Shown here: positions 2,816-49,708 of the stretch, piece after piece | Layout: each line of letters opens with the position of its first letter | Position numbering within the stretch: position 1 is the first letter of the stretch | Origin: Megalobrama amblycephala | Lineage: Eukaryota > Chordata > Actinopteri > Cypriniformes > Xenocyprididae | DNA: 64,000 nt | Assembly: GCF_018812025.1 (NCBI RefSeq) | Contig: NC_063045.1 | Location: forward strand, 51,858,079-51,922,078 | Direction of reading: 5' to 3' | The notes under the pieces: model-generated | Seen by the model: only the letters and a program-made list of their open reading frames with translations | Told to the model about the DNA's origin: nothing | Databases searched by the model: none | Made by a program: the position numbers and the translations under genes

Positions 2816-3726
2816 TTATATTAATACTAATTGAAATATTAATAAATTCTATAATGGTATGTAAATAATACTATAATAACACTGATTCGAACCACTAACC
2901 CAAAGTATAAGCATATAAGCAATGGCAAATTTGATGCTTGCGTTAGCAGTAGTAAATATATATTGCTGTATCTTCAAGTCAGCAGAGATATTTATCAATA
3001 CAGAAGAGGACTGTCTAGTCTAGTATACAGTCCAAAGTATATCTGAGCACTTAACAAATGATCAGGCCGAGAGGCTCATCTTTAAGCCAGCGTAACACAA
3101 TTCTTCATCCTCCCTGGCCTTGGAGATGCTTATTTTTCTGAGAAGCATAGAGGGAATGTGAGTGGGTGGGCAGGAGAGAGCAAGAGTGCAGGCATGGAGC
3201 CAGACATCTAGGTCATGAAAGAGCTCTGATAAAATATCCCAAAGCCTATAAGGCGCACTAGCACCATCTGAATGCCTCCCTTCCATGAAAATGATGGTTA
3301 TGTCAGGACAGTGCACTCCAGTTCTTAGGAATGACTGCTTTCAACATTATAATGAGGACCAGCTGGGTTTTTTTCTCAATCAGAAGCGATCGCAGCCTGC
3401 CAAGTCTTTTTAATAAAGAGGGGCAGATTTACGCCAACATCAAAGTGAGATGCTAGATGTCTGACATTGTTCGTCTGCCTTGTGCCAAACTGTATGGAAA
3501 GGGAAGAGCATGATCAATGATAGTGGCATTATCAAAAATTTGAAGACAGATTGCTTCTGAAGAAACTTCACACAAACCTGTGTTTGTGTGTCCCAAGATT
3601 TAAAATACATTTTTAATCTTGGCTAGCATGTGGCATAATTTGACAAAATAAGTATTTTTGTTTTAGAAATATTGACTTTGTAATGTAATTACACACTGGT
3701 TGCAAATTAAGGGATTAGTTCAATTT

Positions 3727-4428
3727 AAAGGATTAGTTCACTTCAGAATTAAAATTTCCTGATAATTTACTCATCCCCATATCATCCAAGATGTTTATGT
3801 CTTTCTTTCTTCACTCGAAAAGAAATTAAGGTTTTTGAGCAAAACATTCCAGGACTTTTCTCCATTTAATGGACTTCAACCGCTACCAACGGGCTGAAGG
3901 TCCAAATTGCAGTTTCAGTGCAGCTTCAAAGGGCTCTACACGATCCCAGCCGAGGAATAAGGGTCTTATCTAGCAAAACAATCGGTCATTTTCTAAAAAA
4001 CAATTATATACTTTTTATCCACAAATGTTCCTCCAACTTAAATCGTCCGACATCGTTGTTTTACCTGCTCGCTACTTCCAGCTACGTCACGTGTGACCTT
4101 TCCAGTGTGATTACGTAATGCGTATATGTGTGGTTAAAAAGTTTTTTTTTTTTTTTTTAGAAAATGACCGATCGTTTCGCTAGATAAGACCCTTATTCCT
4201 CGACTGGGATCATGTAGAGCCCTTTGAAGCCGCACTGAAACTGCAATTTGGACCTTCAGCCCGTTGGTAGCTGTTGAAGTCCACTAAATGGAGAAAAGTC
4301 CTGGAATGTTTTCCTCAAAAACCTTAATTTCTTTTCGACTGAAGAAAGAAAGACATGAACATTTTGGATGACATGGGGGTGAGTAAATTATCAGGAAATT
4401 TTAATTCTGAAGTGAACTAATCCTTTTA
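3727..4428. mobile_element. Large palindromic (foldback) non-autonomous DNA element
   Basis: The two arms, about 275 bp each (3727-4000 and 4145-4428), are near-perfect reverse complements. The left outer end is AAAGGATTAGTTCACTTCAG and the right outer end is its complement. A non-palindromic centre of about 140 bp separates them, including the T-run at 4142-4158. TTTAAAG occurs at both outer flanks. No protein is encoded. Confidence 0.8.
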
Positions 4429-4794
4429 AAGACTTGTAAAAAACATATCTCTCAAAGGTACACTGTAAACAAAACTGCATGCGTTTTGCGGAAGAATATT
4501 GTTTTGGTTGTGCTTCGGCTCTGTGTGAATGTGCGGATGAATATAACCCTTCATAATAGATAATGCTTTACGAGGAACTCTATTAGAAAGCTTCATATGG
4601 CAGTTTAGCTGTTCAATAAAATACCTTACTCATTACACATCCGCAAGAAGCCGGAGCAACTATTTACGGATATGACGAGAGACGCACAGGCGAGTGATGT
4701 ATGTGTGCAATTGTCCGTGATAACCATTCCATCAGGTCTAAAATATAAACACTTATAATAGGCTTATCATAGTGAATCAGGGTAAGACAAAAAC

Positions 4795-10510: not shown

Positions 10511-12986
<2,476 letters not shown>

Positions 12987-14723: not shown

Positions 14724-15140
14724 TAAAGGGTTAGTTCACCCAAAAATGAAAATTTCGTCATTAATTACTCACCCTCATGTCGTTCCAAACCCGGACCTTC
14801 GTTCATCTTCAGAACACAGTTTAAGATATTTTAGATTTAGTCCGAGAGCTTTCTGTCCCTCCATTGAAAATGTTTGTATGGTAGACTGTCAATGTCCAGA
14901 AAGGTAATAAAAACATCATCAAAGTACTCCATGTGACATCAGTGGGTTAGTTAGAAGTTTTTGAAGCATCGAAAATACATTTGGTCCAAAAATAACAAAA
15001 ACTACGACTTTATTCTGAATAAAGTTGTAGTTTTTGTTATTTTTGGACCAAAATGTATTTTCGAGGCTTCAAAAAATTCTAACTAACCCACTGATGTCAC
15101 ATGGACTACTTTGATGATGTTTTTATTACCTTTCTGGACA
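14724..15140. mobile_element. Foldback MITE, right end truncated
   Basis: Begins TTAAAGGGTTAGTTCACCC at a TTAA. The inner 14900-15140 region is a long palindrome centred near 15013 (ACAAAAACTACGACTTTATT faces its complement). The right arm stops after CTTTCTGGACAT, so the outer right terminus has been lost. Confidence 0.75.
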
Positions 15141-15167
15141 TATAGTATACCGTACATACATTTTCAG

Positions 15168-25504: not shown

Positions 25505-27693
25505 ATGGAGTCGGTGGTGAGAAAGGTATCATTTCATATTGTGAAGCAGACTAGGTCTTTCATAGATTTAGGACATTATTTCTCACATGTAAGATGTCTG
25601 TATACATGAAATGTAGTTTGCTTAATTTTGCCCTTTTATTACTTCTATTTAGAGTAACAAGGAAAACACTAAACCAGTGTGTGGTCCAAAAAAACAAGTC
25701 AGCAGTATTGTATCAAAACAAAGAGTGATATGTAAATCGGCACCTCTTAAGTCAAAGAATGATCTTAAGGAGGATAACTCTGGAAAAAGAGAGAAGGAAA
25801 AGGATGTTAGACCGACGACCAAAGCTAATGATGCTGATCCTACTAAGCGCAACACACTAAGCCAGGCCTTCCGTACGCAGCAGACTGCAAGACACAGGAA
25901 GCTTGTGGAAGAAGTTCAAAAACCACCTTCTACTGTCTCTGCCATTCAGAAATCCAAACCTGGAACGTATAAGGGCCGTGTGGTACAGTCTAAAATCGAT
26001 TGTTTCAGAAAACCTGGTGGTGATGTGAAGACCACAGAAAAGAAAGTGATTTCAAAACTGGATGCGACCAAACCAAAACCTGAATTGCCTAAAGTCCGGT
26101 CCAAGTCTGTTACTTCCCTGCCGGCATCCATTAAACCCAGAGTCAACTCTTTGTCATCTAGATCAAAATCTGTTTCTGATGTTCCGTTGAATGCCACTGA
26201 AAAACCAGTCCAGAAGTCAGTTTCTCATAATCGGATACCTCAAAAGGTCCCAGGCTCCATCTCTCAAGCAGGCGCCCCACGACTTGGTGTTCCTCCCAGG
26301 CCAGCCCCTCTAGCTATAGGGCGCTCAGCCACCAGCAGACCCATTGTTTCAAAGAAGAAAGAGATGGCGGTGCAAGTGGCAAAACTCAAACCGGCCACCA
26401 CTGAACAGAATGTCCGCAGACCTGTCACAAGTACAATCAGCCACTACAAAGTGCAAATGGAGACGGCTGAAGAGAGAAGGTGAGTAGTATATAGGTTACT
26501 GCCATTGAAACGTTGCAGTCAGTAATATTATTAGGCATATAATTTAAAAGAAAATGTCATTAATGTTATTCTGCTAGGATGCAATAAATTAATCATAAGT
26601 GTATTATGGAGATATTTACAATGTTATAAAATATTTCTATTGCAAAAAAACCCTGATAAAAATGTATCATGATTTACAGAAATATATTAAGCTGTGCTGT
26701 TTTAAACAGTGATAATAATAAAATGTGCCCAAGAAACATTTCTTGTGCACCAAATCAACATAAGAATAATTTCTGAAGGATCATGTGGCACTGAAAACTG
26801 GAACATGGCTGCTGAAAATTAATCTTGGCTATCACAGGGATAAATTACATTGTAAAATGTATTAAAATGGAAATGGTATTTTAAATTGTAAATATTTTTT
26901 GATCAAATAAATGCAGCCTTGGTCCGCATAAGATACTTCTTTCGAAAAACATAAAAAATGTACTAATACATTAGTTAATACACTCTGAACAAACATGAAC
27001 AAACAATGAACGACTGTATTTTGATTAACTAACATTTAACAAAGATTAAAAGATACAGTAACAAATGTGTTTCTCATGGTTAGTTCATGTTAGTTAATAC
27101 ATTAACTAATGTTAACAAATGAATCTTATTGTAAACTGGTGCAAAAAAAAAAAAAAAATATTACCTACACCAAACTTTTGAGCGGTTGTGTATTTTAGAT
27201 TCTTCAGTCATAACCTGCATGCATAACCTGATCAGTTTTATCTACAAGTGTGACAGTGCACTGATATGAGGATATATTGATGTGGTTGCCAAATGTTTCA
27301 TTTGTATTCTGCTTTCAGAGCAAAGCTTGCAGAGTGGCTGGCATCTAAGGGAAAGACTCTGAAGAGGCCTCCGATCTCAGAAAAGTCAGCAACCTTTTCA
27401 CAAAAACCAGCTCCACAGGCTAAAACTGCACCCAAATCAACCATTAGTGCTCAGCCTGTGCCTGCCATCCAGACTGAGGCTGTAAAACCAACCCCTGCAT
27501 TGAAGACCAACAGCAAAACTGATGATAACAAAGTCCCTGACAATAAACCAGTGTGTTCTAGCGGATCAAGCAATATTATGAATACCACGTTAGACTTGCT
27601 GGACAACAGTGATATGGATCTGCCGGTCGACCCAGAGATAAGGATGGAGTCGGTAAGAACCATAAGAGAGCCTTATTTGTCACACACACACAC

Positions 27694-27737
<44 letters not shown>

Positions 27738-29054
27738 TCAATCATGTATATTGTCATTATAACTGTAATTTCTGTTTTGCAGTTGGTGATGAACTTGTGT
27801 GATAAATTGGAGGCAATGGAGACTCCCTCATCATGTGAAGATGGTTAGTCTCATGCAGATTCTTTATGCAGTAATTGCAAATGAATACTAGTGTAGTATT
27901 ATTAGAATAAACCAATTTTTGGTTGTGGTGTGATATTTATTTATTTATTTATTTATTTATTAATATATATATATAAATTGCTCATGTTTTTGCAAATCAT
28001 CGACAGACATAAATGCTGACAAAGCTGATGCGTTGGCAGAGGAAAGAATTGAAGAGCAAGTGGAGGAGCACGAAATGGATAAAGTGTTTGAAATTCTGGA
28101 AGAGGAAGAACTGGGGGATGAGGAAGACCCAGAGAGCGACATTACGGAAGACACTAAGATGGCTGGCATAAAGAATGAGGATGATGATCAGAAGGCAAAG
28201 GAGAAAAAGCCATTTGAGAGTGAAGATGACAGTGATGAGGAGATGAGGAGTGCCACTCCAGAGATGGCGGGGGCATCCATTGTGAAATACAATGTGAAAA
28301 CAACTCCATATCTGCAAAGGTGAGTTTGGGGTAATTAAATTTTTTGTAAAAAGACTCTTTATTTGTAAAGGCCTGTTCAAACCAAGCTTGATAACTGTTA
28401 TTGTCCGCACTGCACCAACGGACAATAATGTACTGTTTATTAAAAGAGTGGTGCTGCAGTAATGTTGTCTGGCACTTTAAATGCTTGTAATCTTTAAAGT
28501 GGGGTGGATTCTAATTGGCTGTCAAATGTTTTTATCAGTCAGCTGAACACATTCTTATAGCTTTCCTCTGTGTCATTAATGTCATTAAACCAGTGTCATA
28601 GCCTACTTCTCGTTTTTGTTTTTGTAGCTGTGTTGTGGACTTCCCTGTTCTCACAGAATTAGAATGATTTTTAAAACTTTATAATTATTGTTTTGCTTAT
28701 CCTTGATGTGAACGGGCCTTATGATGTTTAAATATTAATTTGTTTTTCTCGTCATGTCCTTTTAGTGTGAAAAAGAGAATCGATTGCGAAACTGCACCGG
28801 CCAGTGGCTCGCGGCGCAAAAGCACCATCAAAGACCTCAAGTTTTTGACACCTGTGCGACGATCCACGCGAATCCAGCGCAAGTCCTCTCGTCTGCCAGG
28901 TATGCTGAATGACCATGACACTTGCGTCTCCTCATTGGCTGAGCTGGTACAGATGGATGATGCAGATGCAAGTGCTTACATCTACAGAAAAAACCCAGCA
29001 CTACTGGAAGACCTGCCTGATCAGCCTGGAGACTTTGAAAAAGTATGCAGTTAA
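25505..29054 (+). CDS. ckap2: Cytoskeleton-associated protein 2 family protein (CKAP2-like), complete
   Basis: Six coding exons join in one frame: 25505-25525, 25653-26479, 27319-27652, 27783-27843, 28007-28319 and 28766-29054 (1,845 nt, 614 aa). The first donor is ambiguous: using the GTGAGA at 25517 would shorten the protein by three residues. The N-terminal part is basic and Ser/Thr/Pro-rich with the family box [13 protein letters not shown]. The next exon begins with the CKAP2 signature [19 protein letters not shown] Glu/Asp-rich linker follows. The C-terminal exon holds [16 protein letters not shown] and [19 protein letters not shown], the conserved CKAP2 C-terminal domain. Family members bind microtubules, strongly promote nucleation, act at spindle poles in mitosis and are destroyed by APC/C. 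A CKAP2L (radmis) identity is possible; I prefer CKAP2 from overall length and motifs. Confidence 0.85.
26605..27193. mobile_element. Interspersed repeat in ckap2 intron, itself interrupted
   Basis: Diverged copy of the 10938-12650 family (AATTTCTGAAGGATCATGTG, AAATGCAGCCTTGG) ending CCAAACTTTTGAGCGGTTG. At about 26960-27140 a different repeat (TAGTTAATACATTAACTAATG, with GTTAACAAATG) is inserted, after which the outer terminus resumes. Confidence 0.55.
27698..27735. repeat. (AT)n microsatellite just after a ckap2 donor
   Basis: Follows a short (CA)n about 45 bp downstream of the donor at 27653; length variation here could affect splicing of the neighbouring 61-nt exon. Confidence 0.85.
28368..28720. 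mobile_element. MITE in ckap2 intron with GGCCTGTTCA ends
   Basis: The left end AAGGCCTGTTCAAACCAAG and the right end CTTGATGTGAACGGGCCTT are imperfect inverted repeats about 350 bp apart. Non-coding. Confidence 0.65.
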
Positions 29055-30689: not shown

Positions 30690-33600
30690 ATGCCTAATTT
30701 TTGCGCGGCGCTGAACTGCTCCAGGAACAGCACTCACTCGGTGCTGGCGTTCTTCAGGTTTCCACGGGATCCAGAGAGGTATATTACACACGTTTTCCTC
30801 ACCTATCCTACTCTTTGTTATCCAGACGATAGGATTTCGCGTTTAACCTTCATTTAACGTAATTCATTTACCAGTACAGACTATGTATTGCTCTGCTGAG
30901 CTAGTTAGCTTGCTGACAGATCAGATGCGAGTCTGTCTTATATTAAATAGTGTTTATGTACTACACGAACTATCATTACAGAACTGGGAGTTATTCATCA
31001 GGCAGCCCAGCTTTACTCAGCATTTCTGTTGTTCATATAGTCTATATGTTAGCCCAACTGGCTCACAGTTCTGATTGAATGTACTCATCTGTCAAATATA
31101 TATAAGTTATATATATGAACTGCATTGATATCATTATGAATGTTGTGTGTTTTAGCAGTAATCAAAATTGTGTGTTACAGTAAAACAAAAATTTGCACTA
31201 TATTATAGTATTACACAGATACAATCTAACATGTTTACATCATTGTTCTTAATAACTGCTATGATGCTCCATTCATGCCATATTTATTCCCTAGATGTAA
31301 GAAGTGGGTGGAAAACTGCAGTCGCTCAGACCTGAAGGACAAAACGCCTGACCATCTGAACAAATACCACAGACTCTGTGCTAGGCACTTTGAACCTAAC
31401 TTGATAACCAAAACCGTAAGTTATAAATTCATGCTGAGTATGTAATTATTGTGGTAGTTTTTTAATGTACTTAATTATATGAATGTGTATGTGTGTAATG
31501 GAAATGGTATATTTTAGGTGCTGTTACTGCTCACTTTTCAGTTTACTTCAATTTAATATTTTTTCAAAATCTAAATATTCCAAAAACTGCATGTATAGTT
31601 ATTATACAAGTATTAGAAATTGCTGTATAAAATAAGATAGCATGTAAAACTACTGGACACTATAGCTTTGCATCACAACTTCCCATCAATAAATAACATG
31701 TGATCTCTAACATACTGCATTGCACATTATTGTGATTATTATCCAGAGCCCTTTCAGGACTGTACTAAAGGATACTGCGGTACCAACCATATTTGACAAT
31801 CCTTCCTTCAAACGATCAAATAATGAGGTAATATTTGCTCAATATGTATTAATTTATGTGATACTGAACTGGATTATGACAGTCTCTTTACATTTCAAAT
31901 GAAAGTTGTCAATTATGTCTACATTCTGAATGTGAGTGGTTTACTAAAAACATCAAATTCTATAACAGACAGAAAATAAGGATGCCCCTGAAGCGAAGAA
32001 GAGTAAATGTGAGTTGTTTTGTTTGTGTCTTTGTTTTATGATTCAGAACTATCGCAATATAATTTTTCCTCACATATTTACACACTCCTTGCAAAATCTG
32101 CAATTTGAAATAAAATTTTTTTTTTTTTTAGTAATGCCATAATAAAGCGATTCTACATTCTATATATTTATATGTATTCCACAAAATAATTACACAAATA
32201 TTTTTTTACATTCTCAGCGGACTCTCAAAGTGAGGAACCTAAAGATAATAGTGAGACAACAACCAAAGAGATCAGTGCAAGCAAAAATGGTGATGGGGTT
32301 GACAGCAGCCCCCAGATCATTGATGAGGAAACACTCAATAAAGAGTATCTGAAGTCTCTGTTTGATGTTGTCGTGATGATGGGCACACAGAATATCCCTC
32401 TGCATGGGCACTCTGACAAAGAACCCAGAAGCAAAAGCTTCACTCCCAGCAACTTCCAGGCACTGTTGGAGTACCGAATCAATGCAGGCGACGAATTCCT
32501 CAGAAAGAAGTTCGAGGGGTCGCCTGTAAACCTCGAGTACTGCTCCTCTACTCAATTGCAGCAGATGCTGGAAGTGATGGAAAAGTGCATTCGTGAAGAG
32601 CTTTTGGCTGATGTTAAAGAAGGACGCTTCTTCTCTTTGGTTGTAGACAACCTGGTTGAGATAGGCAAAGAGAGCCATCTCCCGTTGTTCATCCGTTTCG
32701 TGGACAAGACCAACTGCCTCCGGGAGGAATTTGTCGGGTTCCTGCTCTTTGAAGGTGATGTGGAGGCGATCACCGAGAGGCTTGTTGCTGAAGTGACTGA
32801 GAAATGTGGCCTGGACATGCAGTATTGCAGAGGACAGGCATATTTGTGTTCTGGTGTGTCCGCTATGAAGGTTAAAGCGGTGGTGGCCAGAATAGCTGAG
32901 CTGCACCCACTAGCCGTTCTCACCCCTTGCTCCAATTGCTCCTTGAACATCTGCCTGGCAAACACAATGACGTTCACAGGAGTGCATCTCGTCATGTCTA
33001 CCCTGAAAAAGCTGGATGCATTTTTCAGTAAATCGCCCTTGTTGCAAAATCAGTTGGAAAGTGCTATTTCAATCTACTACCAGGGAAATGAAGAGAAAGC
33101 CAATGCCCTCAAGGAGGCATGTAATTCGAAATGGACTGAGCAGCACGATACATTCGAAGTAGCTGTTGACCTCCTGGAGTCTCTCCTGCTTTGCATGGAT
33201 AGCGTCCATGACAACGAAGATCACAAATGGAACGATGAAGTGGCACACAACGCCTTCATCATATCCGAGGCATTGGCTGATTTTGAATTTGTCATGACGT
33301 TAGTGGTGCTGAAAAACGCCCTTTCCTTCACCAGAGCATTTGGTAAGAATCTGCAAGGGCAAACGAATGAGGTCTTCTTCGCATCTAACAGTCTAACTGC
33401 TGTTCTGCATTCGCTGAATGAAGTTTACGATAATATTGAGGTCTACCATGAATTCTGGTTCGAGGAAGCCGTCAATCTGGCTGCAGCCCTTGAAATCCCG
33501 GTCAAAGTACCCAGGCTGTACTTCAGAAAACGACCAACGTCTGGTGAGGAAATCCAACCTGAGACCTACTATAAAGAGCAAGTCACCATTCCTGTGGTCA

Positions 33601-34115
33601 GCCATGTGATTAAGGAGCTCACTGACCTTTTTTCTGAAAATCATCTGAAGGCCTTGAAGTCCTTGTCACTTGTCCCTGCCATCATGGGACAGTTGAAGTT
33701 CAACACCACAGAGGAGACCAGTGTAGACATTTATAAAGATGACCTGCTGAACCCAGACACCTTTCCTGCTGAGTTGCACTGCTGGAAGATCAAATGGAAG
33801 CATGGAACTAAAGATGTTGTATTGCCATCGACCATCTACGAGACACTTCAGCTGTCTGATGTGAAGTTCTTCCCCAACGTGTGTGCTCTCCTGAAAGTCC
33901 TGTACAATCTGCCGGTCTTTGCTCTGACGAATGAGAAATGCAGCACTGCGAAACAACGACTGACAGCATACCTGGAAGACACACCTGTGCACCACAGAAA
34001 CAAGAGTATGACCCTGTTCTATATTAACTCTGCCATTAAGCATGATTTGGACAACATGGTGGAGACATACTTGAAAATGTATCCAGATAGTGATCCATCG
34101 GAGAAACGTGATTGA
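30690..34115 (+). CDS. thap12: THAP domain-containing protein 12 (THAP12/PRKRIR orthologue)
   Basis: Five exons (30690-30778, 31295-31415, 31747-31827, 31969-32008, 32218-34115) give 2,229 nt, 742 aa, close to the 761 aa of human THAP12. Exons 1-2 encode the THAP zinc finger: MPNFCAALNC, FFRFP, the Trp in KKWVENC, and CARHF completing C2CH; exon 3 supplies the AVPTIF box. The 1.9-kb last exon encodes a domesticated hAT-transposase body: NIPLHGH, EGRFFSLVVDN, YCRGQAYLCSG, VVLKNALSF, and the C-terminal dimerisation region with ELHCWKIKWK and FFPNVCALLKVL. The usual YDGA catalytic Asp reads YLCS, so it should be inactive as a transposase. Human THAP12 was described as a repressor of p58IPK, the PKR inhibitor. 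The start follows the MPxxC rule of THAP proteins. Confidence 0.92.
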
Positions 34116-35714: not shown

Positions 35715-36490
35715 ATGCCCGAATGCTGTGCCGCAGCAAACTGCAAGCAGAGTGCGGACCAGTCCAACGTTTCCTTCTTTAGTTTCCCGCTGGATCCTGA
35801 TCGGTGAGTGCAGCCTTTTGGGCGTAAATGCAGTCGAAATTTAATCAGTGTTATTTTTTGCTATTTAGATTTTTATTTAAGTACAGAATGAGCAAATTAG
35901 CTTTATTTGTTAGCTGGTTAGCTTCTGCCCCCCTTTTGCAATGATTCATTGAATGCTTTGCACCCTTATTGTCAGCTAAATGCTTATCATGTTGCTACCA
36001 TTAATCTGGTTATGCAGTGATTTTTTTGCGAAGGTTTATTTTGTAGCTAGCCATTATGAAATCATCTTTCGTGTTTCTTCAAAGTGATTGCTTCAACTTT
36101 TATGGGGTTACTGTAAGCAAATGAGTCCTGTACACGTTCGCCATCATCAGGCCCTTCCCAAAATGGCAGGAATTTAATTCCCTCAGAATACGTTATTTTG
36201 TTTATGGCTTTATTTGTATTTTGCTGGTTTCTTTTTGAGGTATTTGGTATTTTGTGACAATAATTAAATAATATTCTTTGTTTTTGTCCTGTGATCTTTG
36301 ATTTTTGAGGTTTTTAATGTTAAAACTTAATTTTTGCACTACTGCAGTAACCTTGCCTCATATCTTTAGATGTAAACAATGGGTGGGTAACTGCCACAGA
36401 CCAGATCTGGAGACCAAAACAGCTGAAGATTTACACAAGAACTACAAATTGTGCTCAAAACATTTTGAGACGTCAATGATATGTCAGCAA
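35715..36490 (+). other. THAP zinc-finger exons 1-2 of the giant gene
   Basis: Exon 1 (35715-35803) encodes MPECCAAANCKQS and FFSFPLDPD; exon 2 (36370-36490) encodes RCKQWVGNCHRPDL and LCSKHFE. C5, C10 and the C-x2-H pair plus W and P complete the C2CH THAP signature. All zinc ligands are present, so DNA binding is plausible. The phase-2 intron position is identical to that of thap12. Confidence 0.88.
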
Positions 36491-39400
36491 GTAAGTGAGC
36501 ATCTTCTGTTAATATGTATATGAATGATCTTTTTATTTTATTATTACTATTTATTATTTAGCATTATCTGCTTGATGTAAACAAACCCAGTTTCCTAGTA
36601 TTGACATATGTAGAGTTGACCAGTGGGCCTGACATGTTATCCATCCCTCCAAAAAACTGCACAATGACATGTCGCCATATGTTTGTGAATGTCAAATTAA
36701 ATTTTCTTCATGGCTATTAAAATGGGTTTTGTGTGAAAGCAGATGTATTCAGATTTTTAAAAAATGGCATGAATGTTGGTGAATTGCCAGTGTTTGAAAC
36801 CACATTTATTTCACAAAAGATTATTAAAGAAATATTAAATTATGCATATTTCCCAAAATTATAGTGTACCATATGTTTTAGTGTAAGTTTTAGTGGCTAA
36901 ACTAGATGAGTACAGTAAACTTTGCATCAAAATATGAATACAGTTACATTTTATTTACTTTTGATTTCAATTTGAATTACATTATTAAAGACCATTTGTA
37001 AACTTAAGTTTAATAGTTTTTGCTTTTTAAAATGGAAAAAAGGTTTAATTAAATTAAAATTAAATTTGTTTATGGGTGTCTGCATAATAAGACTCTGAGA
37101 ATGGGATGTTATTTTTTGTTGGTGGTGGTATAAATTGCTGATTTATATTCGTGTATTATTTGAAATATAAATTCACAAATTAATGATTTATGCATGTCAC
37201 AGCAAACCCTTGTGTGCTGAAATGTATAAAACTCCTTTTTTTTTTTTTTTTCCCAGAGTGATCTTAAGGCTGTTTTGAAGGATGATGCCGTTCCTACTAT
37301 ATTTGATTTTGTATCCAACCAGGACAATGCACAAACTAGCAACAGAAAAAGGACAAGGGAGAAAGTGAGTCTCTTATTTACACATCAAGTAGATCATAAA
37401 ACATTGTTTTTGTTCTGCTTTATATGGTCTTTTGTAAATTTTCATGCTTTTTAAATGCACTGAAATATATTTACAAACTGCAGTCCTAGCAGAATGGTCA
37501 TTGCCCATGCTCCCACCAATGGCACGTATGTACGGCTGTGCACTTTGGTTATGTCAAATGTTATTTCAACAAAATCTTTTGCAATATGTGCTTTTATAAA
37601 GCAACATAAAATAATGAAGCAAACTACTCACCCATTTTTTTAAGTTGATGCTTATGAAGCTAAATATGCAGTGACAAGTTATTTGGTTCTGTGTAGATTA
37701 ATTACCATTTGAATATAAATGTGATTCCACCTTTTCATGTGGATTAAATTTCATGCTTGTAATAGTTCTCAATGATCCCTTACCCAACAAGCATTTTATA
37801 ATTTTGTAGCCATCAGTAAAGAAATGTATTATCTTTTTATTGTTATTCATTGTTTTTATTTAGCATTATCTGCAAATTGTAGTGTTAACTACAAACATTT
37901 TAGCATATAATGATACATTTCGTTTTCATTTTTTCAGACAGGAGATGAGCCGATTGTCACAAAGAAAACTAAAGGTAGATAATGCATTTCCATGTCAGCT
38001 GCTTTTAATTCTCTCTTCTTTTTGTAATTACACAAACTAATTACAGGGGATTCTCTGCTATTTTGTTTTTAAGTGTGTTTGTGTTCTCTCTCTCTCTCTC
38101 CTTTTTTTTTTTTTTTTGGTGAAGGTACCACCGATAACTTAAACCCCTCTGTGACAGAGGAGGAAGTTAAAGTTGAGAGTGACTCAGCAGAGAACATTCA
38201 AACTCAAAATCTTCCTGCACATGATGAATCAGAGGAGGATCCTGCTATTTCCAAAGCGAAGGAAACTTTGAAAGACTACTTCAAAGAGACGTTAGCCTTC
38301 ACTGGTTTCAGCATCGCCAACAATGCTTCTCTTAACTCTGTTAAACCATTGGGGAATGACCCTGCTGGGCCGCTTTCTGTCAATACCATATGTGCAGAGA
38401 AGATCGACCAAAAAGAAGTGCTCACCTTAGGTGAGGATGTGATGCGCGAGGAGATCCGCAATAGCCTGCGCCTTGCACGCTTCTTTTCCATACTTCTCCA
38501 AGACAAAATAAACATTGAGGGCAAGGACCAGATTCCTGTGTTTATCCGCTCTGTCACAGGTGAAGGCTTTCCACAGAAACACCTCATGGGATTCCTTCCC
38601 TGTGATGTTGACTCCGACAGTCTGTTTTTATTGCTTCTATCCGAGATCCGCAACAAGTGGGGCCTGCGGATGGAGCACTGCCGTGGCTTCACCTACCTGT
38701 CATCAGGTAGCATGTGTCAGAAGCTGAAGGAACTCTCCTGCAGGATGCTGCGGGATTTTCCACAGGTGGTTTTGTCCCCCAGTGAGCCCTACGCCTTCAA
38801 CATGTGGTTGATTCGCTCCATGCCTATCCTTCCAATTCAAGACGTTGTTGATACTGTAGAGCAAGTCGCTGCGGTTGTTAGGCAATCAGAAACTCTGGCG
38901 AAGAAACTTGATAGCAAGATCACTGCTTCATACAGCCACATCAAAGGTGAGGTGGACCGAGTCAAGGATTCTTGCCAGAACCATTGGGAATATGGCACGG
39001 ATGCTTTCCAAACAATGCTTGATATCTTGGAGCCGCTTTTGAGCAGCATTGGAGAGATGTGCACCAGTGCCCTTTCAGATGTAGATGCAGACACTGTCGA
39101 AGTGCTTCTAAAGCTGAAAGAGAAACTGAAGAACTTTAATTTCATCATTACTCTCGTGGTCTTAAAGAACACGCTGTGTTGTGTAAGCATCCTGAACCCC
39201 AGCCTCAGGGGAATAATCAGCATCAGCAGCACTTTACAGTACACCATCTCAAATGCCTTAAAGCTTCTCACCAAACATATGCAGGAGATTGCCATTTTTC
39301 ACAGGAAGTGGTTCTCTGATGCATTGGGCAGAGCCAAGAAGTTGGGGGTGCCTGTCAATCTGCCAGTGGAGATGGTGACAAACGGTGATGGCACGGAGAA

Positions 39401-39996
39401 ACCACAAGCATCATTGGAGGATTACTACAGGGAAGCGCTGAGCAAGAAGGTTTTGCAATACCTTGTTGATGAAGTCAAAAGAGTCCTTGGCACTGAAATG
39501 GCAAGAATCCTCAGATGGTTGTCATTGGTGCCCTCATACATGGCTGACCACAATTTTAGCATCCGCAAAGACAAAGTTGCTGATGCCAACCTGAATAACT
39601 TGGCTCGTCCTGACTCCTTTTATGATGAGCTGGGTTGTTGGGAAGTGAAATGGAGGCATGCTAGCAAGCGAAGGATTCTTCCCACTAGTGTGTTTGCTAC
39701 CCTCAAGATCCCAGATATAGGCTTTTACCCAAATGTACAGAGCCTGTTGAGAGTGCTGGGCACCATCCCTTGTGTCCATGCAGATTCAGATGTGTATGGG
39801 CAGTATGACATGGTGCTGAACCGATATCACACCTACATGAAAGAAGTACCAGTGGAAAAAAGACTGAGCAATATGGCCTTTGTTTATGTCAATCAAGATG
39901 TCCACTTCAGCATTGAGGAAATGGTAGAGGCGTATGTAAAGAAATATCCAGAAGTCCTGCAGCTTTTACAAGAGGTAAACATATTTTTATTTATTG

Positions 39997-40034
<38 letters not shown>

Positions 40035-40259
40035 TATTAATTACTGGAGATGAATAATGCAAAAAACCCTCAAATGTTCACTTTTTTTTTTTTTCTTTTT
40101 TTTTTTTTAAGGATGACATAATGGAAGTGCAACCATCAGGTAAAACTTCTCATCTCTGACTTATTATTCTTAAAAAATGTTAACATCTTCTTTTTCATAG
40201 CTCAAACAAGTTTGAATTGAATTTTACTGTAATATTAGATGCAGTTGTTAATTTTTTAT

Positions 40260-40319
<60 letters not shown>

Positions 40320-43300
40320 TTTTTTTTTACTCCAAATCCTATACAGTTCCAGAAACCAGTGCAAATGACGCCTCCAAAGAAGATACGGAAGAACCGAGAG
40401 AGATGACTTTAAATATGGACGTTGAGAGACAGAAACCACCCGAGTATGCAGAAACTGATAAAGAGGCATTAAAATCTGCATTACAGGCTGCTGTCACTGC
40501 AGCATATAGCAGGCAAAGCAGACACACTCGGGGTGATCAAGATCAAGAAGTAGAATATGTGACCAAATCTGAGATGAATGAAGTCCTTAAAGTGTGTGAG
40601 GATGTTGTTAGGGATAGGATTCTTTCAGAGGTCGGAAATTCATTCTTCTCTCTGTTTATCGATAGAGTTGTCAGATTTGGAGAGACTGACTACTTACCAA
40701 TTTTCCTCAGATTTGTTGACAGTTTCGATGTCATGCGCCTTGAGCTTATGGGATTTGTTGAGGTTATTCTTGACACTGAGGCCATGTGCGAACGGCTTTA
40801 TGATGTTGTCACCAATGAGTGGCATCTGGATTTGAGTTACTGCAGAGGTCAAGCTTACCTTGGCTCTGGTGAAGTGTCCTACAAGCTCAAGGCTTTTGCA
40901 TGTAAAATACAGGAGAAGTATCCTCTTGCTATATGCACACACTGCTCATGTTACTCTTTCAATACCTGGTGGTCAAGATCAGTTCCAGTACCTGCAGTCA
41001 TCAGAGCCATAGACACATTAGAGGAGATAGTGTCTTTTTTCCACAGCATGTCTGCCCTCGAGAAACAGTTAGATCAAATCTTAGCCATAGGCCTAAGAGA
41101 GAGCTATGAGAAAATCCATGAGCTTCAAGGAAAATTCTGCTCTTCTTGGCTTGAGAAGCATGACTCTTACGAAGTCTTCGCTCAGATTCTGGAGCCTCTG
41201 GCAGATTGGCTAGAAAATATTGATAACTGCCAACCACAAAGATGGAGTTTGGCAGTATCCAACCGAGCCAACAGACTACTTCACTTAATTCGGGACTTTG
41301 ACTTCATTGTGGCAATTGTTGCGCTGAAGAATGCCTCATCCTTCACCAGAGAACTGAGTGCAGCGCTACAGAAAGATCATTTTAGTGCTGCCTCGCAGCT
41401 CAGCCAGATCAGTGGTATTGTGGCCACACTTAACCGAGTGAAGACCAACATTAAGGTTTTCCATCAGAACTGGTTTGATGAAGCTTGTTGTTTTGCTCAG
41501 AGTCTGGGTGTGCAGGTTAAAGTGCCTGATAGTGTGATTGTTCCAAGGGACAGCCTCTTGAAACCAGGTACATACTACAAAGATGCAATGAGTGTCCCTT
41601 TAGTTGACCACCTCATAAACATGGTGAAAGATTATTTCTCTGATGACCACAAGGAGGCTCTCAACCTATTGTCCTTGGTACCCTGCTCTGTGACAATGAG
41701 CTATGTTTTTGAAACGCTCAAGTCGAAACCTCCATTGTACATTGGTGACCTTCCAGATCCTGACAATTTCTTCACGGAGCTGAGCTGCTGGAAAGTGAAG
41801 TGGAAAACGAAAGTGGTTAGTGTAACCATACCAGAAACCATTTTTCAGACTCTGCGTCTACCCCTCATGCAGTACTTTGTAAACATCAATACGTTGCTGA
41901 AGATTATGTGTGTGTTGCCAAGCACCGCTTTGGATTATTGTGGTGAGGTGAAGCGTCATAAAATGTATCAAGACTACTTGAGCAACACCTCACCCATGGA
42001 CAGATTGCCTTGTTTAGCCATGCTTCAGGTCGGCACTGACTTTAACAGGGACCTAGACAGAATGGTTGCTCAGTGCTTAAAGCTCACACCTAAGACGCTG
42101 GAGGGCATTTGCCTGGTAAGGATCAGTTTTGTAAAAATGAGTTGCTTGTGTTAAGTGTTTAATTTGCTTTCCAGTTGTGTTTCTAATGTCTGTTGTGCTC
42201 CACAGGACAAAGAATCCAAAACCTTAGGAAGGACTGCTGAAATAAAAACAGAAGGTATGTAAGCTATGATTATTCTTATTGCTTTCTTTAAAAAAAAAAA
42301 AATCAGTATCTTATTTATGTTATTATGTATGTATGTTTTTAGTGGGAGATGAGTTGTTCACAATGAGATCAATAACATGCATTAATAGATAGGGTAAATT
42401 TTCAGTTCATGCCGACTTTAATGCCCACTTTGCCAACATTGCAGATGACATCCACATGGATGAAGTGGAGAACAGGGACACTCTGCAGGTTTGTAAAGTT
42501 ACATTAATAATGATTGTTATTATGTAGTGTATCAGAAAACTATAGTTCAGTTGAAAACTGTTTTAAACTATTTTCAGTAAAACTTTGCTTCATATCAGTT
42601 GTTTTTAGTTGATTGCCTTTTTAGCTTTATTCACAAGTACTTCTTTTTACAGGACAAAGACTCCAGAACACTAATGGTGAATTCTGAGATAACAGGTAGT
42701 GATATGTAATTTGTGGGACTGACCTTCCATTTGAGTCCTTGATGTGCTATTAATGTATTATTTATTTCATTTAAACTTGTACATTGTCTAAAATAATGTC
42801 TACCTTGCCTTCTAGAAGCAGTTACCCACAAAGAGGTTGCAGAGAGCATAGAGGCTCAGCAGCAGTCTGAAAACATAGCAGAAGTGGTTGCTGAGGACCA
42901 GCTTGTCAAGGTTGATGATGTGGGCCAGATTTTGGATGAGAATGGCCATTCTGATGAACCATCAGATAACATAAGGAACTGTGAAGAAGTCTTCAAACAG
43001 GCAGCTAAGCTTGCAAGGAGAAACTGCTCATTGATCGACCTTAACAAATCAGAGCAAGATGCTGTTGTACAGAAACTTGCCTCATGTCATTGGGTACAGA
43101 AGGAAGGGGCATCATTTTCAGAGGGGGAAATGCTGCAAAGTATTGTAAAGGCCATACGAGAAACGATCCTCAGTGAAGTTCAGGACTCTCCTTTCTTTTC
43201 CATCATCACTGATAGAGCAATCTTAGTGGCCGAGGCGAAGTTCTTACCACTCTTTGTTAGATATGTGAATGACTGCATTCCTAAAGTGGAGCTCATAGGT

Positions 43301-46300
43301 TTTCTGCCATTTGATGAAAGCTCTGATGTGGATTTGCAATCTAAGGCTCTTTCAGCTACACTTGAGGATGAGTGGGGACTTCAAATGGGCTACTGTCGTG
43401 GCCAGTCCATCATGTGCATTGGTACAGGGAGCCACAGTCTCAGGAAGATGGCTTTGGGCTTTTTAGAGAGCTATCCATTAGCTGTGAACACTCCCAGTGA
43501 GTCTTGTGGACTTGCCTACTGGCTGGCTTTAAGCCTACAGAATGCCTACATTACAAAGGTTCTAGAGACAGCTGAGGATTTGCTACAGTTTTTTGACCAG
43601 TCACCCAAATTAGAGAGTGAGCTTGCCAAGACCATGGATGGGCTTCTGAATACCCCACGGGAAGCACTTGCAGAGATCCCAGAGACCTGCTTGTCTAGAT
43701 GGAAAAAGAGAGAAGACTTTTTCGATATTCTGGTGGACATGTTGGAGGGAGCCCTGAATTGCTTAGATTCTGTGAGCACCAACTCCAATGGGTCATGGAG
43801 TAGTAGCATGTCACTGCATTCTCAGACCCTGTCCACAGCCATTAGACAGGTAGATTTTGTCATCCCCCTAGTGATCTTGAAGAACGCCTGTGCTCCGTTG
43901 AGGAACTGTAGCACTGTGTTTCGCTGCGGAAACCCTGCTGACATTATTTGTGAGCTTGAGAAGATTATGCCAATAATAGATTCTCTTGGCAAAATGTTGG
44001 ACAATGTGAGTGCAGTGCATTCTATCTGGTTTGAGGAGGCAGTGGATCTTGCTACTAAGGTCACAGGATTGCTGTCATATGCGGAATCTGTCAGTGGCCA
44101 TGATTCACCAGAAACGTTCTACATGGAAGCAGTTAGCTTACCAGTTCTAAATGGTTTGATTGAAGAAATGAAGTTTAACTTCTCAGAGAATCACCTAAAG
44201 GCACTGAAAGTGTTGTCGCTTCTGCCAACATGCAACCCTTTGCCCGTTCTCCCAGAATCCACAGATAAACTGCACACAATATACATGAGTGATCTCCCTG
44301 AGCCAGAAACAGCTGAAGAAGATATTAACACCTGGGCCACAGTATGGAGGGAGAAATATCAAGATGTTTGTCCTCCCACATCCATCTCTGAGACACTGCT
44401 CCATAATGAAGCCAAAAACCTTCCAAACATTGCAACCCTTCTTAAGCTTGTGGCTGTGTTGCCTAGCATTAGCATGGAGTGTGATCTAATGAAGACAACA
44501 CTAAATGCCTTGAGGACCTTACTCCGAGATGGTATCTTCAGCAGAGGCAGTAAGACTGATGCAGTCATGCTTCTTATGCATCGCCAGACACTGCAGAGCC
44601 TGGAGGAGGTGATTGAGAAATGCCTGGAGGGTGATCCGGAAAGTCATTTATTTCTTGCTCAGGTATGATAAATTTCTTAGTCTTTATACTGTTATAATTC
44701 ATTGTATTCAACATATTTTGATGTGTGTTCTTATTAATATTAATATCACCTGATAAATAAGTAATGTTCCTGAAAACCCTGTTCTGTTTTATTTTCCTGA
44801 TTGTATTTATACATGTAGGTAAAAGCAAGAGTTAGTCACTTGAGAATGGAAGGTGGTAAGTAAAACTAAAAATATTATATACTAAAAAATACTATATTAA
44901 ATATTATATACTATATATACTATAAAAAATATTTGCAAGTAGAAAGATTTATTATTGATTATTATTGATATTAATTGAGAAGTTGGTTTTTGAGTAGCTC
45001 AAATGGGCCCTTAAAGTATTATAATAAGCTGTGTTTTTATTCTGACACACTCTTTCCTGTCCTTTCTCAGAGGTGATTGCTATGGCTCCACAGGAGATAG
45101 CTGTGGATACAAATGGTTCTGGTTATCCACAAGAGGCAAAGGATGCTGAAATTGGTCAGTAATATTTAATGAAAAGTATTAGTAATAACCTAGGTGCATG
45201 ATTATGAATTGTCTCTGTTTTTTCTTACACAATCATGTCTCGTCCATTGTTTAGATGTTAAAACTGCTGCTCCAGTGGAAATTCCAGTGGAAACCAGTGA
45301 AATGGAAAAGGTTGAAGAAACACGTGTCTTATGTACACCTGACCAGCCATCATCTTTAATGCTCAACAGTTCAGACAAAGCCACAACTGCAGCTCAAGTC
45401 ATCCCTGCTCTCAGCTCTCTGCCAACCAGCACACCTGAACAACCGACAGAATCTGTCCAAGATGCCACTATGCAAACCCCAGTAGCAGAACATGATAGAA
45501 GTGATCAACTGATCACACTTGTTCAGGATGTAAATGATAGGTCTGAAGTAATTGATCAGTGTGGAATTGGTCTGCTAGAAACAGGGGATCAAATTGTAAC
45601 TAATCAAACTGAGCAGTCTAATGAAGAACAGCCAGTTAGCATTGTTCAGTTAGTATCAGTTGATCAAAGTGAAACTGATCAACCCATGGAAGTTGATCAG
45701 TTTGTAGCAACAGAACCAGTTGAAACAGACCAGCCAGCAACAGAGAAACAAAGTGATTCATCTATAAATGCTCAAGATGAAGGTTGTTGCACAGTAACAG
45801 AGTTAGCAGATGGTCAGTTGATATCAGAGGATCAGACTGAATCTGTTCAGCTCATTGCAGTTGATCACAGTGTAAATGATCAGTTGGTGTCAGTAGATCA
45901 AAGCGAAACCAATCAAGTCATGGAAATTGATGAGTGTGAAAATGATCCATGTGTAGTTGAAGATCAAGTTGAAAATGGCCAGCCAGCAACAGGGGAACAA
46001 TGTGTAATTGAGCAGTTGGCAGTTAGTCCAGTTGAAACAGATCAGTCTATAATAAAAGGTCAGGATGAAGCTTGTCAGATAGTAACCGGGATAGCAGATG
46101 AGGGTGAAACTGGTCAGTTGGTATCAGGGGATCAAATTGAATCTCATGAATTTAAGGCTGTTGATAACTCTCGAGATGATCATTCTGCAGCAGCAGGTCA
46201 GGGTGAAACTGATCAGTCAGTAACCAAAGATCAGACTGTAAATAATCAGTTCATGTCAGATGACCAATTTGAAACAGATCATTCAGTAGTAGAAAGTCAA

Positions 46301-49300
46301 GATGAGGCTGGTCAGCCAGAAACTGGGTTAGTGAATGAAGGTGAGTTAATCTCAGGGGATCAAAGTGAATCTAATCAACTCATGGTAGTTGACTCTGGAA
46401 ATGATCAGTCCTTAACAGAAGGTCAAAGTGTAACTGGTCAGTCTGAAATAGTAGATCCAAGTGTAACTGAACAGTTCATGGTAGTTGGTCAAGTTGAAAA
46501 TGATAAATCCGTAGTAGAGGGTCAAGAGGACACTGCTCAGACAGAAACCGGGTTTCCAAGTGAAGGTGAAACTAGTCACTTTGTGTCAGGAGATCAAAGT
46601 GGATCTGATCAGCTCATGGTAGTTGACTCTGGAAATGATCAGTTCTTGGGAGATCAAAGTGTAACTGGTCAGTCAAAAATAGTAGATCCAAGTATAACTG
46701 AACAGTTCATGGTAGTTGGTCAAGTTGAAAATGAAAATTCCATAGTAAAGGGTCAAGAGGACACTGCTCAGACAGAAACTGGGTTTCCAAGTGAAGGTGA
46801 AACTAGTCAGTTAGTATCAGGAGATCAGAGTAGATCCAATCAGCTCATAGTAGTTGACTCTGGAAATGATCGATCCTTAGCAGCAGATCAAAGTGTAACT
46901 GATCAGTCAGAAATGGTAGATCCAAGTGTAACTGAACAGTTCATGGTAGTTGGTCAAGTTGAAAATGGTCATTCTGTAGTAGAGGGTCAAGTTGACACTG
47001 CTCAGACAGAAACCAGGTTTCCAAGTGAAGGTGAAACTAGTCAGTTAGTATCAGGAAATCAAAGTGGATCCGAGCAGCTCATGGTAGTTGACTCTGGAAA
47101 TGATCGGTCCTTAACAACAGATGCATGTGTAACTGGTCAGTCAGATATAGTAGATCCGAGTGTAACTGAACAATTCATGGTAGTTGGTCAAGCTGAAAAT
47201 CACCATTCCTTAGTAGAGGGTCAAGATGACACTGCTCAGACAGAAACCAGGTTTCCAAGTGGAGGTGAAACTAGTCAGTTAGTATCAGGAGATCAAAGTG
47301 GATCTGATCAGTTCATGGTAGATGATGACTCTGAAAATGATCAGTCTGTAACCGAAGATCAAGATGTAACCTGTCAGTCAGTAACAGAAGATCAAAGTGT
47401 ACCTGATCAGTTCATAGCAGTTGGTCAAGTTGAGTCAGAACAGTCTATAGTTGATGGTAAAAATGAAGCTTGTCAGACAGAAACTGTATTTCCAAATGAA
47501 GTTGGAACTAGTCAGTTAATATTGGGTGATCAATGTAGATCTGATCAGGTCATGGAAGTTGACTCTGGAATGAATCAGTCTGTAATAGCAGATCAAGGTG
47601 GAACTGGTCAGTCTGTATTACCAAATGAAATTAGAACTAGTCGGCTAGTTTTGAGGGATCAATGTGGATCTGATCAGCTCATGGCAGCTGAGTCTCGAAA
47701 TGATCAGTTTGTAACAGCAGATCAAAGTGGAACTGGACAGTCATCAGCAGATCAAACTGTAACTGATGCATTTGTGGAAGTTGCAACTCAGCTGCCTATA
47801 GTAGAAGATCAAAGTGGATCTGGGTTAGCAGATAATGAGGGAACTTGGCAGGTAGCATCAGGGAATCAAAGTGGAACTGATCAGCTTGTGGCAAATGTAC
47901 CCTGTGGAAATAATCAGTCTGTAGTAGAAGCTCAAGGTGGAACTGTTCTTGCAATTGCATTGAATCAAAGTGTACCAGATCAGTCTATGGAACTTAGTCA
48001 AGTTGGAACTGACCAGATAGTACCAGGTAATCAAAGTGAAACTGATCAGTCCAACACGGTAGATCAGTTTGGCCCTGACCAGCCTAAAGTAGCTGCAGAA
48101 CGTGGCACAAATCAGTTCAATTCAGCGGCTCTAGATGGCTCAGACCAAGAAGCTGCAGCAGTACACGTTTGCCTTGATCAGCCCTCTGCAATAACAGTTA
48201 CTGATCATTATACACCTGTTTCACCTGAGGATATTACTGATCATCCTGTAGCATCAGAATCAGAAGGCACAGACCAGTCTGAAGTAAAGGCTCATGATGG
48301 CACAGACCAAGTAATTACTCTGGATAGCACTGGACCTGAAAAAATAGTTTTTACCCCCTACAATGCTGATGCTCGAGAGGAATTGCTTAAAGAACTATGT
48401 AACATAAAATTCTTTTCCATAGTCACTGAGGATGAGTTTGCAATTGATGGCCAACCTTACATTCCTGTAGGAATACACTACCTTGACAAACAAGACATTC
48501 AGAGTGAAAATATATTAGCATTCATCCCCCTTTCCACAAACATTGCTTCATTTGTGGACACTCTCACCATTGTCCTCTCTGAGAAGTGGGGTTTGAACTT
48601 GGCACTCTGTAGAAGTCAAACCTTGGCAAGACCAGGTGCCTCACTCTCTCAGATGACACAGGCTTCAGATTTGCTTTCCCAGAGACTCCCTCATGCTTTC
48701 AGTTTCCCGAACCCTGTTACTCTGAAGTCTTTGCTAGCCAGTTGGTCCTCCCTTAGAGAGATAACTCACAGTTTTGAGTGCTTAGAGCAGCTGTTTATGT
48801 GGTTCTCTGAGGATGTTCAACGACGGGAAAGACTAGAGGATGCTGTTGTACATTTGTTCCAGAAGGACGAAAGGAAAGCCAGTGAACTGAAAGCCAAGAT
48901 CAGCAGTAATCAATTGGCAATGAGCCATGAGGTTCTGGAAATTACTACAGACATTCTAGAGGTCATCATCCTTTGCTTAAATGAGATGAAAGGAAACCAA
49001 GATAATGAGGCAAACGCAGCACAGGCCCAGAGCTTCCTTTCTGCTGTCCAAAACTTTGATTTCATATTGACAGTTGTGATTATGAAAAACATCTTAAGCC
49101 TCACCAAAAACCTAAGTCTGAGTCTTCAGGGAAATTCCTATGATGTGTATCAAGCTGTAAACCGCCTGTCTGATCTCCTGCCCTCTCTCAGTGAAATGAA
49201 GAACAGTATTGACACGCACCATCAAAACTGGTTTCAAGAGGCAGTTGCACTAGCTTCTAAGCTGCAGGTACCTTTGCTACAAACACCCTTAAATGTGCAC

Positions 49301-49708
49301 TACAGAGAGGACCTCAGTAAAGGGGCCATTGAGCACTGTATTGCTGAGGTGGAGGGGTTCTCCCAGGATGTTCTGTCTGCTCTTCGCTGCTTGCAGGTTG
49401 TGCCTTATGTCATGTCAAACGTGGAGGGATGCTGCAAGGACAATGAGTTTATCAAGGTGTTTCAAGATGATTTACCTGACCCAGATTCCTTCCAGACTGA
49501 GCTGCAGAGGTGGAGGGACAGGTGGCCAGATACTTCTGCCACTCATCAACACCTACCTGACACTGTTCTTGGAACTCTCAAAGCTTCTGACATCCAGTCA
49601 TTTCCCAACATTTCAACCATCCTTAGGCTCCTGGCAGTCCTGCCCTACTCCAGCATGCACAGTAGCTTCAGACAAGGAAAGATGAAATCTGAGCTGTACC
49701 CTCTGTAG
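35715..49708 (+). CDS. Giant THAP protein with four tandem hAT-transposase-derived modules
   Basis: Fourteen exons: 35715-35803, 36370-36490, 37257-37364, 37938-37974, 38125-39974, 40112-40139, 40347-42115, 42206-42254, 42445-42488, 42653-42695, 42816-44662, 44819-44855, 45071-45154, 45255-49708. All have GT/AG borders and compatible phases, summing to 10,560 nt (3,519 aa plus stop). Order: THAP finger (about 1-80), AVPTIF box, module 1 (about 119-735), module 2 (745-1334), module 3 (1380-1995), acidic Asp/Gln-rich repeats (about 2110-3065), module 4 (about 3068-3519). Exons 1 and 2 have the same lengths and phases as in thap12 next door, so this is a tandem paralogue that expanded. Each module resembles the thap12 hAT body. 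Probable nuclear DNA-binding or scaffold protein; function unknown. A shorter start choice or split transcripts are possible. An in-frame ATG also exists at 35700, but MPECC fits the THAP start. Confidence 0.8.
38125..39974 (+). other. hAT-derived module 1 (exon 5)
   Basis: A single 1,850-nt exon, phase 1 in and phase 0 out. Landmarks in order: ARFFSILLQDK, HCRGFTYLSSG, VVLKNTLCC, KWFSDALGRAKKLGVPVNLP, YYREALSKK, LSLVPSYM, ELGCWEVKWRH, and FYPNVQSLLRVLGTIP. It matches the thap12 body from the RNase-H-like core to the C-terminal dimerisation region but lacks the NIPLHGH-type N-terminal motif. The open frame continues into a poly-T tract in the next intron, so intron retention would end the protein at 40040. 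Confidence 0.85.
40265..40316. repeat. (TA)n microsatellite just upstream of exon 7
   Basis: About 26 TA dinucleotides followed by a T-run, ending 30 bp before the acceptor at 40346. Together with the poly-T tracts at 39999-40033 and 40081-40109 it crowds the splice signals of exons 6 and 7. Confidence 0.9.
40347..42115 (+). other. hAT-derived module 2 (exon 7)
   Basis: A 1,769-nt exon, phase 1 in and phase 0 out. Landmarks: NSFFSLFIDRVV, YCRGQAYLGSG, VALKNASSFTREL, NWFDEACCFAQSLGVQVKVP, YYKDAMSVPLVDH, LLSLVPCSV, ELSCWKVKWK, and YFVNINTLLKIM. Of the four, this one looks closest to the thap12 body. It is preceded by a 28-nt exon (40112-40139), flanked by long T-runs and an (AT)n tract. Confidence 0.85.
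42206..42695 (+). other. Three small linker exons between modules 2 and 3
   Basis: Exons 42206-42254, 42445-42488 and 42653-42695 encode short charged linkers. The first (DKESKTLGRTAEIKTE) and third (DKDSRTLMVNSEIT) are clearly similar and share phases 0 to 1, so one is probably a duplicate of the other. An AATAAA word lies inside the first at 42241-42246. Confidence 0.7.
42816..44662 (+). other. hAT-derived module 3 (exon 11)
   Basis: A 1,847-nt exon, phase 1 in and phase 0 out. Landmarks: SPFFSIITDRAIL, YCRGQSIMCIG, VILKNACAPLR, IWFEEAVDLATKV, FYMEAVSLPVLNG, LSLLPTCNP, DINTWATVWREK, and NLPNIATLLKLVAVLP. The fold landmarks persist but the C-terminal KW motif has diverged. Intron retention after this exon would stop at 44668. 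Confidence 0.85.
45480..48340 (+). repeat. Acidic Asp/Gln-rich coding repeat region
   Basis: About 950 codons of degenerate short repeats with a DQS/DQ core every 8-12 residues (TDQS, GDQS, EDQ, VTGQS), built from TGATCAG-like DNA words. There are almost no aromatic residues and few basic ones, so it is probably disordered and strongly acidic. It stays fully open with no stop or frameshift. It lies in exon 14 between the linker and module 4. No counterpart exists in thap12. Confidence 0.88.
46451..47383 (+). repeat. Four tandem copies of a 77-78 residue unit
   Basis: Units start at 46451, 46682, 46916 and 47150 (spacing 231, 234, 234 bp). Each contains VDPSVTEQFMVVGQ or a one-residue variant, DTAQTET, FPSEGETS and VVDSGND or a variant. 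Spacings are multiples of three and the copies are much alike, so they arose recently by in-frame expansion. Confidence 0.88.
48352..49708 (+). other. hAT-derived module 4 (3' part of exon 14), C-terminally short
   Basis: Landmarks: IKFFSIVTEDEF, LCRSQTLARPG, VIMKNILSLTK, NWFQEAVALASKLQVP, LQVVPYVM, DLPDPDSFQTELQRW, and SFPNISTILRLLAVLP. It stops with SELYPL soon after, so it lacks the last roughly 50 residues (DLDNMVETYLK region) present in thap12 and modules 1-2. It is the most diverged of the four. Confidence 0.82.

Follow-up and report, generated by a model that had tools for sequence, protein, structure and literature searches.

A predicted gene in which a single THAP finger precedes four serial bodies derived from hAT transposases (M1 to M4) lies on the plus strand of contig NC_063045.1 of Megalobrama amblycephala, within the 64,000-nt stretch analysed here (the window, whose positions serve as coordinates throughout). 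Immediately upstream stands a separate THAP12 gene with one such body (Table 1). By sequence comparison, the four-body gene is a copy of si:dkey-250d21.1, a named yet uncharacterised gene common to ray-finned fishes and coelacanth.

The four-body gene and its THAP12 neighbour

Exon calls in the window are predictions from sequence. Re-deriving the exon chain of the four-body gene gave 14 exons separated by 13 introns across 14 kb, with GT/AG at every border and phases that fit throughout; the spliced frame measures 10,560 nt and encodes 3,519 amino acids with a single, terminal stop, exactly as a preliminary description of this DNA had proposed. An in-frame ATG five codons upstream of the start of exon 1 is usable too, and in the nearest relative, P0007, the THAP match lies five residues later than in the window protein. 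All four body exons begin in phase 1, and those of M1, M2 and M3 (exons 5, 7 and 11) close in phase 0. M1, M2 and M3 each stand directly behind a micro-exon of phase 0->1, while M4 is preceded by a micro-exon of this kind plus one phase 1->1 exon. Micro-exons 8 and 10 encode similar peptides, and because the milkfish linker has only one DKESKTL-like stretch, one small exon was likely duplicated in the carp lineage.

Table 1 Exons, repeat and neighbouring THAP12 gene, in window positions
Feature	Position	Strand	Remark
THAP12 gene, one body	30690..34115	+	742 aa; five exons (89, 121, 81, 40, 1,898 nt)
Exon 1, THAP finger part 1	35715..35803	+	alternative in-frame ATG 35700
Exon 2, THAP finger part 2	36370..36490	+	121 nt, same as THAP12 gene
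Exon 3, THAP domain end (AVPTIF motif) and first half of bipartite nuclear localisation signal (NLS)-like stretch	37257..37364	+	
Exon 4, micro-exon before body 1	37938..37974	+	phase 0->1; second half of NLS-like stretch
Exon 5, hAT-derived body M1	38125..39974	+	
Exon 6, micro-exon before body 2	40112..40139	+	phase 0->1
Exon 7, hAT-derived body M2	40347..42115	+	predicted Hermes-like fold
Exon 8, micro-exon	42206..42254	+	peptide DKESKTL...
Exon 9, micro-exon	42445..42488	+	
Exon 10, micro-exon	42653..42695	+	peptide DKDSRTL..., similar to exon 8
Exon 11, hAT-derived body M3	42816..44662	+	
Exon 12, micro-exon	44819..44855	+	phase 0->1
Exon 13, linker exon	45071..45154	+	phase 1->1
Exon 14, repetitive V/Q/S/D/E-rich linker, then body M4	45255..49708	+	M4 48347-49705; stop 49706-49708
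234-nt in-frame tandem repeat within linker	46017..47613	+	~6.9 copies

A fifth hAT body in the window (32218-34115) belongs to the upstream THAP12 gene and not to the four-body gene. THAP12 (also PRKRIR, P52rIPK, DAP4 or THAP0) shares with the four-body gene the finger, the sizes of the first two exons, a body exon that starts in phase 1 behind a micro-exon, and the lack of the second catalytic aspartate. It differs in having one body instead of four, as the preliminary description had stated, in forming a clade of its own, and in keeping the third catalytic residue, a glutamate, in 7 of 8 rows. The upstream gene is likely a tandem paralogue of the four-body gene. Its five exons are consistent with the four coding introns listed for PRKRIR in an earlier paper (PMC3257199).

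Shared architecture and the single frame

Homologues were collected with the M2 region (query residues 1-2035 of the predicted protein; best 120 of 158 proteins listed) and with bowfin M3 (best 120 of 151 listed, 21 of them new), both searches admitting long proteins only. The resulting 141 listed homologues are database clusters rather than species, and some species recur. The closest among the matches listed is grass carp si:dkey-250d21.1, 99% identical in M2. The order M1-M2-M3-M4 was found in 119 of the 120 listed matches of the M2-region search, with P0016 as the exception, and 19 of the 21 new bowfin-M3 matches have four bodies, the others being a gar model without M4 and an Arapaima model that begins at M2. 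In total, 138 of the 141 carry four bodies in the same order (identical on recount), so that the layout recurs in other teleosts, where a search for it had been suggested. The orthologue group thus has the same THAP-M1-M2-M3-M4 order in one protein as the window model, which differs from the milkfish member by an extra linker from micro-exons 9-10 and a shorter C-terminus. The coelacanth protein P0196 (2,579 aa) likewise has one THAP finger, by Pfam, and four bodies, their order being taken from the tree described below. P0016, a Carassius gibelio model, consists of M1, M2 and an M3 fragment, after which comes a body sharing 91% identity with the window's THAP12 body; with THAP12 located upstream in the window, the model is not a simple read-through.

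Fifteen of the listed proteins are known only from contigs labelled 'lgn', a label that the source leaves unexplained and that we took to mean assembled sequencing runs. All four bodies stand in each of these frames, and the longest contig per protein (7.8-11.2 kb) exceeds the frame by just 343-1,232 nt. Because the window gene has its introns spread over 14 kb and the contigs barely exceed the frame, they look like spliced transcripts, ones that join the modules which, on the refuting case considered earlier, transcripts would never join. In five of the fifteen (P0020, P0061, P0069, P0081, P0110) the start is called inside the THAP region or beyond it, reflecting either a THAP-less isoform or 5'-incomplete sequences; the annotated models P0117 and P0126 start in the same region. 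As for expression in zebrafish, one study places the zebrafish protein (F1QRG5) among significantly changed eye-proteome proteins, 1.58-fold up after trichostatin A (PMC5595969), and a toxicology study names the si:dkey-250d21.1 transcript as an unannotated responder (PMC8063052).

A search with M2 alone, covering proteins of 324-1,030 aa with 60 of 60 matches listed, returned 31 M2 pieces without a THAP match, two truncated THAP-M1-M2 models, 25 THAP12 proteins and two hAT transposases. The other refuting case, modules occurring as separate THAP-bearing genes, therefore found no example among the 31 M2 pieces; short proteins with M3 or M4 were not searched. No tetrapod or shark orthologue appeared by name among the matches listed (120 of 158, 120 of 151 and 60 of 60), many 'lgn' rows being nameless, and tetrapods gave only THAP12.

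Exons 1-4, joined, match the Pfam THAP family (PF05485, E 1e-20), and the window finger is of C2CH type with the AVPTIF motif present and 47 of 92 residues identical to the THAP12 finger. The C2CH pattern occurs in 128 of the 141 listed homologues, the remaining 13 having a partial THAP match or none. A first, narrow scan of the window protein for an NLS found none; a looser scan gave a bipartite-like stretch C-terminal to the finger, which reads RKR..KKTK in the window protein and is present in 136 of the 141 listed proteins versus 5 of 141 after shuffling. An HCF-1-binding motif was found in only one of the 141.

Identity, constraint and origin of the bodies

When aligned, the four bodies share 26-34% identity with the single body of the upstream THAP12 gene, and 40 columns of the five-body alignment do not vary. 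The Pfam family DUF4371 scores 37.2 bits in the THAP12 body (cut-off 32.1) and 24.0 bits, below the cut-off, in M2, and no hAT Pfam family matched in M1, M3 or M4 of the window. PF05699, the hAT C-terminal dimerisation region, is found in coelacanth P0196 (E 5.9e-10) and is not reported for the window bodies. Because Pfam picks up little in the window bodies, the evidence for their hAT identity comes from alignment, tree, predicted fold and intron phase. Both homology to an intact hAT transposase and a Hermes-like fold, predicted for M2, speak for hAT descent. A PDB sequence search with M2 gave no match at E 10, and a Foldseek search returned nothing at E 0.001. Structure prediction, proposed earlier as a check on the modules, yielded a fold for M2, but M1 and M2 modelled as one chain showed no confident docking.

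None of the four bodies has the D-D-E triad of an active hAT transposase. The second catalytic aspartate is absent from all four (141 rows each) and the third residue, glutamate, is kept in 3, 1, 1 and 0 of 141 rows, while the first aspartate is kept in 140 of 141 listed rows of M2 and 139 of 141 of M3. THAP12 keeps the first aspartate in 7 of 8 rows. The bodies are accordingly predicted, from these residues, to be unable to cut DNA, and the protein differs from the Hermes transposase both in this broken triad and in carrying four bodies per chain. In the eight sequences inspected, M4 is missing the hAT region's C-terminal tail, and because of this it may differ in role from the other bodies.

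Identity between the window and milkfish is 80.6% in M1, 81.8% in M2, 71.0% in M3, 52.8% in M4 and 63.8% in the THAP region (54.6% in its flank), with the other four segments at 48-57%. By this comparison M1-M3 appear clearly held back, and M4 does not stand clearly above the linkers. The linker between M3 and M4 measures 1,071 residues in the window, is rich in V, Q, S, D and E and contains 51 DQ pairs, versus 57 residues in bowfin, 60 in milkfish and ~80 in coelacanth. At this site the salmonid orthologues P0036 and P0044 carry an expansion of their own, built from other repeats (AEEDGVLM and AQEGGALV units). Five linker repeat copies of the window gave ratios of nonsynonymous to synonymous substitution (dN/dS) of 0.48-1.32 over ten pairs and look weakly constrained, so that for this part of the last exon freedom from stops says little. 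This weakens the earlier argument from stop-free frames to selection for the 4.45-kb last frame taken as a whole. M4 itself takes up only 453 residues of that frame, most of the remainder being repetitive linker. Pseudogene decay was also considered, and the stop-free frames together with M1-M3 conservation do not favour it.

Phylogeny was examined with a quick tree of 67 rows and then with a maximum-likelihood tree restricted to 39 of these rows, with two intact hAT transposases only, both with all three motif residues. Bodies of coelacanth and ray-finned fishes group by position: M1 with support 98/98, M2 with 95/98 and M4 with 98/97; the M3 group is weak with coelacanth (70/72) and reaches 100/100 for the ray-finned rows alone. 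In the quick 67-row tree, coelacanth M3 did not join the remaining M3 rows, and support for the M2 group was 94. Since the bodies group by position across both lineages, the four-body layout likely predates the coelacanth / ray-finned split. A separate four-fold duplication in coelacanth was tried as a one-clade tree and rejected (p 5e-9), for a grouping named after the first trees and a single coelacanth protein. THAP12 forms a clade (99/94) with all four bodies outside it and is the sister of M4 (85/81) in the 39-row tree; bodies and THAP12 together lie on one side of the two intact transposases (100/100). A tree uniting the four bodies with THAP12 outside is neither shown nor rejected (p 0.124), so that either of the two genes may have come first.

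The four-body gene is likely an old paralogue of THAP12, and exon phases and tree make serial duplication of a unit of micro-exon and body exon the simplest reading. In the bony-vertebrate ancestor, this unit of a THAP12-like gene would have multiplied in place, and each earlier stop would have been replaced by a splice donor, such that all bodies came to be read from one promoter with one shared THAP finger. Several independent hAT transposon insertions into a THAP gene would account for the low identity to the THAP12 body and for a tree that does not unite the four bodies before THAP12, but we consider this very unlikely given that every body exon begins in phase 1, like that of THAP12, and that bodies and THAP12 share the loss of the second aspartate and their side of the tree.

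Proposed function and competing explanations

We consider it somewhat better than an even bet that this likely old THAP12 paralogue, with one finger and four bodies lacking a catalytic aspartate, encodes a nuclear, promoter-bound scaffold and not a transposase. The NLS-like stretch, being so widely kept, moved us slightly upward from a starting point already just above even. On this reading the finger would bind at a promoter, in the way reported for THAP12, and the bodies, predicted to be cleavage-dead, would be protein-binding and dimerisation platforms whose partners would be one another, a second molecule or the THAP12 encoded by the adjoining gene. In carps, catfishes and characins, the long linker between M3 and M4 would serve as a flexible spacer, and a chain with four bodies would hold more partners at each DNA site. 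We infer DNA binding, nuclear action and protein binding by analogy, because THAP12 is reported to be promoter-bound and THAP0 to homodimerise: a 2026 preprint describes THAP12 as binding promoters and activating complex I assembly genes from the nucleus (PMC13404843), and another paper assigns homodimerisation of THAP0, the old name of THAP12, to residues 1-488 (PMC6402169). A bolder version, in which one finger wired in cis to four dead transposases has formed an intramolecular multimer since the bony-vertebrate ancestor, builds promoter complexes with THAP12 and was lost in tetrapods, is tentative and on balance doubtful.

Should the late starts in five of the fifteen transcript-like contigs reflect THAP-skipping transcripts that give the main product, the bodies might instead work in the cytosol, one candidate setting being the PKR/DNAJC3 stress pathway that has been proposed for THAP12; according to the same preprint, THAP12 was indeed originally described as regulating DNAJC3 and PKR (PMC13404843). 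We regard this as unlikely in view of how widely the C2CH pattern and the NLS-like stretch are kept, of a THAP region that is better conserved than its flank, and of the nuclear pool that is reported there to do the work of THAP12. A retained DNA-binding or nuclease role of the bodies, such as binding transposon ends in genome defence, would fit the first aspartate kept in M2 and M3 and the Hermes-like fold predicted for M2; with the second aspartate missing throughout and the glutamate nearly so, and with the reported promoter activator THAP12 likewise keeping the first aspartate and the glutamate, it seems quite unlikely. That annotation has strung together four neighbouring genes or pseudogene remnants, making the single protein an artefact, strikes us as highly improbable: although exon calls are predictions and P0016, P0187, P0203, P0156 and P0157 are shorter or odd models, the compact four-body contigs, the agreement of nearly all listed homologues, the well-conserved M1-M3 and the absence of a THAP finger from every M2 piece all argue for one gene. 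The first three of these points bear out the original proposal of one THAP finger and four serial hAT-derived bodies in a single gene.

The one-body THAP12 and its four-body neighbour form a natural series at one locus, and comparing them would put the idea of dead hAT bodies as dimerisation platforms to a direct test; the named zebrafish orthologue makes knockout and tagging feasible. What is new is the unusual four-body architecture of a THAP12-type domesticated hAT gene; the zebrafish orthologue was already named. Domesticated transposases usually keep a single transposase body. ZBED and other domesticated hAT genes are likewise host genes from hAT transposases, with a different DNA-binding finger (presumably of BED type in ZBED), and we know of no four serial bodies among them. 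In the open-access papers searched on THAP12, domesticated hAT genes, the locus name and F1QRG5, we came across no account of a four-body THAP protein, in line with the initial impression that no such protein had been described. Some domesticated hAT host genes are reported to work as transcription factors (PMC3424704), and the accessible portion of a survey of transposon-derived transcription factors holds no such four-body case (PMC10027918). The 2026 preprint links THAP12 itself to genes of mitochondrial complex I and to a disorder in humans (PMC13404843).

Farther upstream in the window, exons of a CKAP2-type gene lie at 27281-29051 on the plus strand, its C-terminal exon matching PF15297 (E 4.4e-23) and an earlier exon giving a weak match below the cut-off (E 4.6e-4); an open frame at 25653-26480, which matched no family, may belong to the same gene. 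Long hairpins at 3724-4429, 11045-11696 and 14892-15141, with arms of 110-293 nt that are 90-96% complementary, resemble miniature inverted-repeat elements.
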